Part shown: in pieces, positions 1-2,117 of the stretch
Numbering within the stretch: position 1 is the stretch's first letter
How the letters are laid out: each line of letters opens with the position of its first letter
Program-made: the position numbers and the translations under genes
The notes under the pieces: generated by a model
The model's input: the letters and a program-made list of their open reading frames with translations, nothing else
The model's database searches: none
What the model was told of the DNA's origin: nothing
Source: Ignisphaera aggregans
Lineage (GTDB): Archaea; Thermoproteota; Thermoprotei_A; Sulfolobales; Ignisphaeraceae
Direction of reading: 5' to 3'
Length of the DNA: 32,172 nt
NCBI GenBank assembly: GCA_015662595.1
Contig: DQTV01000074.1
Location: forward strand, 1-32,172

Positions 1-2
1 AA

Positions 3-854
3 CTAACTTTGACTTTGTGAAAGCTTTTCAATAAACTTAGCGTATTCCTCTGAACGCATCGATTTATAATGTTGTTTACTGGGAAACTGTCCACTCCTAA
101 CTTCATTGATGAACTCGCGAACAGCATCGATAATCTCCTTAGATAGGTCTCTATAGACCTTTGCAAAGTAGGGAGGGTTTTCACTCAGCCCCAAAATATC
201 GTGCAGAACTAGTATCTGACCATCACAATATGGGCCGCTGCCTATACATATGGTAGGTACCTTGACCCGTTTAGTTACTTCAGCTGCGACCTCAGCCGCT
301 GTATGCTCAATAACTATGGCGAACACACCAGCTTCTTCAAGCGCCTTAGCATCCTCGACTATCTTTATTGCCTGATCAACATCTTTCCCCATCAAGCGAT
401 AGCCACCTAGTACTAACGCACGCTGAGGATTCAGACCTATGTGGCCCATAACCGGTATTCCCGCCTTTACAAGCCTTTCAACGACATTGAATATCTCTAT
501 CCCACCCTCTAACTTCACAGCTTCAGCTCCATGACGAACAAGCTTTATGGCATTTCTAAGAGCATCCTCAGGATTTATCTCGTAGCTACCGAACGGCATA
601 TCAGCAACGACTAACGCTCGCGGTTTAGCTCTTGAAACTGCAGAGAGGTGATGTAGTATGGTCCTCATTCCGATTCTTACCGTGCTATCAAGCCCTAGCA
701 TAGTCATGGCGACCGAGTCTCCAACTAGGATACCATCCACGCCAGCCATATCGACAAGTCGCGCCATAACGTAGTCGTACGCCGTAACCATCACTATCCT
801 CTCACCGCATTGCTTCTTCTTCAAAAAGTCCCTTACCGTCACCTTACTACGCAT
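3..854 (-). CDS. panB: 3-methyl-2-oxobutanoate (ketopantoate) hydroxymethyltransferase
   Basis: PanB motifs (VTAYDYVMARLVDMAGVDGILVGDSVAMTMLG, GHIGLNPQ, KLEGG). Start placed at the ATG at 854 because GAGGTG lies 7 nt upstream; the track start (872) overlaps that SD. Confidence 0.95.
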   Translation of the reverse strand: MRSKVTVRDFLKKKQCGERIVMVTAYDYVMARLVDMAGVDGILVGDSVAMTMLGLDSTVRIGMRTILHHLSAVSRAKPRALVVADMPFGSYEINPEDALRNAIKLVRHGAEAVKLEGGIEIFNVVERLVKAGIPVMGHIGLNPQRALVLGGYRLMGKDVDQAIKIVEDAKALEEAGVFAIVIEHTAAEVAAEVTKRVKVPTICIGSGPYCDGQILVLHDILGLSENPPYFAKVYRDLSKEIIDAVREFINEVRSGQFPSKQHYKSMRSEEYAKFIEKLSQSQS

Positions 855-917: not shown

Positions 918-1634
918 TTATTCGTTACCTAGATTTGACGTGGATACCGTGTGCACATCAATAGTCTGGTGTATGTCGTTTCCAATATTCTTAGACGTAG
1001 GTATAGCCTCTTCTATTCGTTCTGAAACGATGTAAGCCAGTTCAAGTACTTCCTTTAAGATTCTTATTTCGGCCATCATCACCTCATCGAATTCCTCAGC
1101 GCGCTTAAGGATCCTTACGATCTTTGGCAGAACTCGAAAGGCAAACTCCTGGAATTTCCTGACATCCGCTGATGTCAGCCTAGGTTTTACACTCCACTTC
1201 TTTAACTGGTCAAGCCATCGTTTAAGGCCAAGACTCCGTATTTGTACTTTAAGCGCTACGATTTCTGGCTCTTCTAAAATGGAATTGAGACCCCGCAGCT
1301 CATTAATGAATTCCTCCACAGCCTCGAGGTCTACAAACTTATACCAATGCTGAGACTCTGTATGATACGTAGTTTCAAGCACCCCATACTCACGCTCTAG
1401 AATTCTAAGTAGCTGGGATGGATTATAACGATAGCCACGTCTATTTAACTCCTCAACTAACGATTTATAGTCAAAATCGCCCGGAGAGCCATTCTTTAGA
1501 ACTCTATTCCTTTTAGCTACCGTAAGTGCAGCCTCGAGTACTATACACAAACGCTCACCAAATCTATTATATGCATTCATCAACGCCATCTTTACTGCAT
1601 TTCCACTCATTCCCCTTAAACCACCCGCCACCAT
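918..1634 (-). CDS. conserved hypothetical protein, helical, winged-helix-like N-terminal half
   Basis: Long ORF with normal composition. The upstream GTG start of the track overlaps a TATA-like ATATAAATA; internal ATG at 1634 preferred. Confidence 0.6.
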   Translation of the reverse strand: MVAGGLRGMSGNAVKMALMNAYNRFGERLCIVLEAALTVAKRNRVLKNGSPGDFDYKSLVEELNRRGYRYNPSQLLRILEREYGVLETTYHTESQHWYKFVDLEAVEEFINELRGLNSILEEPEIVALKVQIRSLGLKRWLDQLKKWSVKPRLTSADVRKFQEFAFRVLPKIVRILKRAEEFDEVMMAEIRILKEVLELAYIVSERIEEAIPTSKNIGNDIHQTIDVHTVSTSNLGNE

Positions 1635-1698
1635 TAACGTACCTAGTCGGTACCGATATTTATATGGCACCGCGTAATTCGTACATTAAAGTGTAGAG

Positions 1699-1768
1699 TT
1701 AGTCAGCCGGGTAAGTTCTCTTCATCGTTTAAGACGTGACTCCGTACGGGAGTAACTCATCATTCTTC
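1699..1768 (-). ncRNA. C/D-box sRNA candidate guiding 23S rRNA 2'-O-methylation
   Basis: Minus strand: C box ATGATGA (1763-1757), internal C'-like ACGATGA (1728-1722), D box CTGA (1706-1703); 61 nt from C to D. The 12 nt before D, GAACTTACCCGG, complement CCGGGUAAGUUC, a conserved 23S rRNA segment. TATA-like CTTTATACC lies about 35 nt upstream of the C box. D' box is degenerate. Confidence 0.72.
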
Positions 1769-1859
1769 ACATCACAATTCATAACATTTCTCCCCGAGGT
1801 ATAAAGCAAAAATAGCGGGAGAAACTCAATCGTAGGCATACGGACAGCGTGAGGAGGTA

Positions 1860-2117
1860 ATGGGAGTTACGAAGCTTGTATTAGATGTACTGAAAACAAT
1901 AAAAGGACCCACATTAATAGACATGGCACAGAAAATCGTCGAATTGCCAGGGGTAGAGCACGTCAATATAAAGGTTAATGAAGTAGATGTCGAAACATTA
2001 ACGTTGACAATAACGATCGAGGGTACGGATATAGATTTCGAAAAAGTAAGGAAGCTTATAGAAAGCATGGGAGCAGTAATACATAGTGTAGATGAAGTCA
2101 CAGCCACTAGGGAATGA
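1860..2117 (+). CDS. DUF211 family protein
   Basis: MGVTKLVLDVLKTIKGPTLIDMAQKIVELPGVEHVNIKVNEVDVET is typical of DUF211; SD GAGGAGGT upstream. Confidence 0.85.
   Translation: MGVTKLVLDVLKTIKGPTLIDMAQKIVELPGVEHVNIKVNEVDVETLTLTITIEGTDIDFEKVRKLIESMGAVIHSVDEVTATRE

Follow-up and report, generated by a model that had tools for sequence, protein, structure and literature searches.

The minus strand of the 32,172-nucleotide stretch of Ignisphaera aggregans DNA that we analyzed (the window) carries, from position 1763 to 1703, a real small RNA gene of this heat-loving archaeon, confirmed as a 61-nt archaeal box C/D sRNA. Judging from its sequence, we are highly confident that the RNA is a double guide, whose D guide would address 23S rRNA positions 1946-1957 with G1950 as the modified base and whose D' guide would address positions ~1904-1914, in helix 69, with G1907 as the modified base. 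Methylation of these two nearby sites at the heart of the large rRNA is almost certainly its predicted role. That the RNA is a C/D sRNA with a D guide for conserved domain-IV 23S rRNA has strong support: the gene is conserved across the order, guide and target covary, synteny holds within the family and the sRNP proteins are present. The numbers 1950 and 1907 follow what we take to be the E. coli sequence, with m5U1939 and m5C1962 as landmarks. Homologues were collected in two steps, by DNA similarity and afterwards with the covariance model R1, which uses sequence only and was trained on ten homologues including the window copy. The ten-sequence alignment is referred to as A2 and the further homologue alignment as A3; inverted repeats and TATA boxes were counted over 83 aligned rows or homologues.

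Table 1. Elements of the box C/D sRNA gene and its surroundings in the window.
Feature	Position	Strand	Basis or remarks
Box C/D sRNA core, C box to D box, 61 nt	1703..1763	-	Sole skeleton in window; R1 score; homologues
C box ATGATGA	1757..1763	-	Alignment A3; consensus RUGAUGA
D' guide GTTACTCCCGTA, 12 nt	1745..1756	-	Conservation in A2; pairing with relatives' 23S; covariation at 1909
Degenerate D' box CGGA	1741..1744	-	Position equivalent to CTGA, CCGA, CAGA, TTGA, CGGA in homologues
D'-C' linker, variable, 15 nt	1726..1740	-	Alignments A2 and A3; shorter in many homologues
C' box ATGAAGA	1719..1725	-	Aligns with ATGAAGA, ATGAGGA, GTGAGGA, GTGATGA of homologues
D guide GAACTTACCCGG, 12 nt	1707..1718	-	12/12 pairs with relatives' 23S; compensatory change at 1952
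D box CTGA	1703..1706	-	Near-invariant in A2 and A3
Candidate TATA box CTTTATA	1800..1806	-	37-43 nt upstream of C box; inferred promoter
DUF211 protein (PF02680), divergent neighbour	1860..2117	+	Pfam 104 bits; beside sRNA in most same-family loci
orf918, 250-aa protein, downstream neighbour	918..1670	-	Same strand as sRNA; start at least 33 nt after D box

Because neither the Rfam LSU model nor a pattern search found a 23S rRNA in the organism's own MAG (1.1 Mb, 129 contigs, 81% complete), targets were matched to the 23S rRNAs of relatives, drawn from chosen genomes and a DNA probe search, and for the same reason we infer complementarity to the organism's own 23S rRNA. The D guide forms 12 of 12 pairs with CCGGGUAAGUUC in the 23S rRNA of the same-family genome G004 and others. 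This bears out the preliminary description, which had proposed a guide complementary to conserved domain-IV 23S rRNA and, under the D+5 rule, the last G of CCGGG as the methylated base; using the relatives' rRNAs we reached the same base as the predicted site, Gm1950. The D' guide forms 10 of 12 pairs with the relatives' sequence GCCGGG(A/G)GUAAC, its target being GCCGGGAGUAAC on the 5' strand of helix 69, and the two guide bases adjoining the D' box (TA) are unpaired with known 23S rRNAs. Here the D+5 rule predicts modification of the second G of CCGGGAG, Gm1907. The D+5 pair is formed in both guides, and over 26 genomes the complementarity averages ~10 of 12 pairs per guide. The region around H69-H71, within the H68-71 part of domain IV, is a hotspot of 2'-O-methylation (Dennis et al., 2015, PMC4644070), and the main texts of PMC4644070 and PMC7994747 make no mention of positions 1907 or 1950.

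Both predicted targets gain support from compensatory changes in guide and target at positions 1909 and 1952. Among the 26 genomes with a full-length sRNA and a 23S rRNA, position 1909 is an A in 18, and the guide carries a T in all 18; in the other eight it is a G, faced by a C in six guides and by a T (G:U) in two, with no mismatch (Fisher p = 1.2e-4, a figure that ignores the relatedness of the genomes). This change is seen in two places, a subclade of g5, a genus of family f1, and genus g32 of family f9. At position 1952, a G meets a guide C in three genomes (g22/g50), the guides of which are also mismatched at 1953, and an A meets a T in the other 23. These tallies count genomes, not independent events, and the full-length copies perhaps trace back to two lineages for 1909 and to a single one for 1952. 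A further 1909 case comes from the presumed Sulfolobaceae (f11), where this position is also a G and the matching guide (TTACCCTCG, TTACCCCCG) resides on a different sRNA.

As to its mode of action, the sRNA would presumably be transcribed from a promoter of its own, located between the DUF211 gene and orf918, after which L7Ae should bind the C/D and C'/D' motifs and Nop5-fibrillarin should join. Base pairing of the D guide would then direct a 2'-O-methyl group to G1950, and that of the D' guide to G1907. Since the targets flank H69-H71 at the subunit interface, at a distance of ~43 nt from each other, one sRNP could hold both of them at once, and the particle probably also assists local rRNA folding. 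We consider it unlikely, in contrast, that chaperoning the folding of H69-H71 is the main task of the double guide and methylation a secondary one. Double guides have been suggested to play such a role (PMC4644070), and the two guides are kept together in many families although they are separable, as seen in Sulfolobaceae; base pairing around the two predicted methylation sites, however, is preserved in almost every genome, which is what one would expect of a function in methylation.

The same rRNA region is interrupted in several relatives by 23S introns, or by similarity breaks that we took as introns. In G100 and G119 they follow A1913, where the D' target has its edge; in G090, G075, G035, G083 and G041 they fall between the two targets, near 1926/1927; and in G100, G095 and G136 they interrupt the D target itself after ~A1952, the corresponding loci being L096 (G100), L089 (G119), L090 (G095), L091-L095 and G136:C45. 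Because the intron falls inside the D target in the last group, the D guide duplex could form there only across the ligated exon junction. That the two guides constitute one selected unit, clamping both sides of H69-H71 and timing modification against rRNA splicing, is an idea we put forward tentatively and regard as rather improbable.

We next consider the D' side, on which the preliminary description had suggested a single-guide or atypical sRNA. In the homologues, the 12 nt after the C box follow the consensus xTTACTCCCGKA, which is conserved across families, and the TTACTCCCG core of this guide is invariant in A2. Given a D' box that is degenerate but aligned, the exact 12-nt spacing and the cross-family conservation of the D' guide, the window sRNA qualifies by sequence as a standard double guide, the D' side of which is not atypical. 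The earlier remark that the D' side shows no clear CTGA holds insofar as the box reads CGGA; a D' box is nonetheless present by alignment, after a perfectly spaced guide, and is a canonical CTGA in homologue L037, while others have CCGA, CAGA, TTGA or CGGA. Likewise, the letters of the reported ACTCC-CGTAC-GGAGT inverted repeat are real, but a comparable repeat occurs in only 2 of the 83 aligned rows, namely those that by coincidence have a matching GGAGT-like stretch downstream. We thus rejected a functional hairpin in the D' region, and the window RNA has no extra folding stability compared to shuffled sequences (z = 0.50). An sRNA with a working D guide and a D' side that is a structural hairpin without a target is accordingly very improbable: the degenerate D' box, the 5-bp inverted repeat of the window copy and the hairpin in its predicted fold would fit such an RNA, but the D' guide belongs to the best-conserved parts of the molecule, covaries with helix 69 and is linked to the repeat in those two rows alone.

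ACGATGA, initially read as a C'-like box, was rejected, as it would give a 15-nt spacer and does not occupy the position aligned in homologues, where ATGAAGA (1725..1719) is found instead. With ATGAAGA as C' box, the D guide is exactly 12 nt long, and the RNA thus combines terminal C (ATGATGA) and D (CTGA) boxes with internal C' and D' boxes and two spacers, C-D' and C'-D, of exactly 12 nt each, as is typical of archaeal C/D sRNAs. Inspection of the window flanks revealed no clear terminal C/D stem, and some homologues have GGG/CCC at this place. Such stems are often short or absent in archaea.

The window copy scored 56.0 bits (E 8e-16) against R1, a model whose training alignment includes this copy. 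R1 homologues were present in 87 of the 147 genomes of the order, most of them full-length and carrying both guides, and at a stricter cut-off 107 of 229 genomes of the class had matches; nearly all of these belong to the order, and two come from another family outside it. In named records, the exact pattern was found in Ignisphaera, Pyrodictiaceae, Pyrolobus, Acidilobaceae and other Desulfurococcales MAGs. The C, C', D' and D boxes align across the homologues (A2, A3), and the boxes are thus conserved in relatives, as anticipated. In the presumed Sulfolobaceae, the two guides reside on two different sRNAs (loci L137, L139, L141 and L138, L140, L142), each with a different partner, one combining the helix-69 guide with AGGCATTTG; in L138 and L140, an sR11-family match lies just downstream of the helix-69-guide match. 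In L011 and L013 (f8 and f5 genomes), the guide GAACTTACCCG directly follows the C box, that is, it takes the D' position, and CTTA comes next; the guide may have swapped its place within the sRNA. Guide modules are known to be reused and recombined (PMC4644070).

The genomic surroundings are conserved within the family as well. A search for synteny near DUF211, proposed at the outset, revealed that the adjacency is held in most same-family loci (Ignisphaera group), in which DUF211, a PP-loop ATPase and orf918 keep their positions by the sRNA. An orf918 homologue adjoins the sRNA in seven same-family loci, the 250-aa protein itself having no Pfam match, and DUF211 lies within ~1.2 kb of the sRNA in several Desulfurococcaceae. 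Across the 83 homologues, YTTWWR matches were commonest 20-49 nt upstream of the C box (13, 18 and 15 in successive 10-nt bins). The genome also encodes fibrillarin, Nop5 and L7Ae, the fibrillarin and Nop genes being adjacent on contig C52.

A pattern scan for the skeleton C-12-D'-(2..20)-C'-12-D returned a single instance in the window, that of the sRNA, and in the same scan both guides contained a 9-mer or longer stretch complementary to a relative's 23S rRNA. In 300 first-order (dinucleotide) resamplings of the window, neither the skeleton with two 23S-complementary guides nor the bare skeleton appeared (0/300 each), and a random 12-mer has a chance of ~0.02 of such a 9-mer complementarity. 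For these reasons a chance origin was rejected, and the minus-strand 61-nt C/D sRNA placed by the preliminary description at 1699-1768 stands, its quoted letters being present. Although the D' and C' boxes of the window copy are imperfect, the clean resamplings and the conservation of sequence, guides and location make chance boxes within the orf918 5' leader, or a decaying sRNA pseudogene, extremely improbable.

According to these data, a strongly supported sRNA with precise bounds is added to a lineage in which it had gone unannotated, together with two exact predicted methylation sites at the ribosomal subunit interface. Across most families of the order, the same two guides have remained linked, with compensatory changes in guide and target; this order-wide linkage, and its coincidence with rRNA intron sites, lend the gene a modest extra interest.

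How does this sRNA relate to catalogued families? In the window, only tRNAs exceeded their Rfam thresholds, in line with the earlier statement that the sRNA is unannotated. Its best covariance match is RF01310 sR7, with 32.9 bits (E 6.6e-6) against a gathering threshold of 37, and the gene may lack an annotation because this score falls just under the threshold; thresholds on box-like models are a suggested cause of such genes staying unannotated. Homologue L051, carrying the same two guides, passes sR7 at 50 bits. An orthologue has therefore probably been catalogued already, the window gene being an unannotated, slightly divergent copy. The consensus of sR7 contains guide sequences other than those of the window sRNA, which suggests that the family either pools sRNAs with different targets or is defined chiefly by the boxes; passing its threshold thus says little about targets. 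A second C/D sRNA of the same genome (L143:1513-1552, minus strand, G000:C96) resembles RF01144 sR17, with 35.3 bits against a gathering threshold of 36. Its D' guide, TTACCTCCGG, shares the helix-69 target of the window sRNA, whereas the D guide, AAGGCATTTGG, is complementary to CCAAAUGCCUU, which lies between the sites matched by the two window guides. With this second sRNA, helix 69 would be addressed twice in the genome. The L143 D' guide fully pairs with helix 69, with one G:U, only if position 1909 of the organism's own 23S rRNA is a G.

The window sRNA is an ordinary, conserved member of a well-known class. Archaeal box C/D methylation-guide sRNAs of the double-guide type were reportedly described by Omer et al. 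in 2000. Of the archaeal C/D sRNAs studied by Dennis et al., about half carry two guides, and their targets lie no more than 100 nt apart (PMC4644070). Compared to these double guides, the window sRNA shares the C/D'/C'/D arrangement, the two 12-nt spacers, the length of ~61 nt, two rRNA targets within 100 nt and the location of these targets in the domain IV hotspot. It differs in its degenerate D' box, CGGA, and in a 15-nt linker longer than that of most homologues, neither of which is a fundamental departure from the class.
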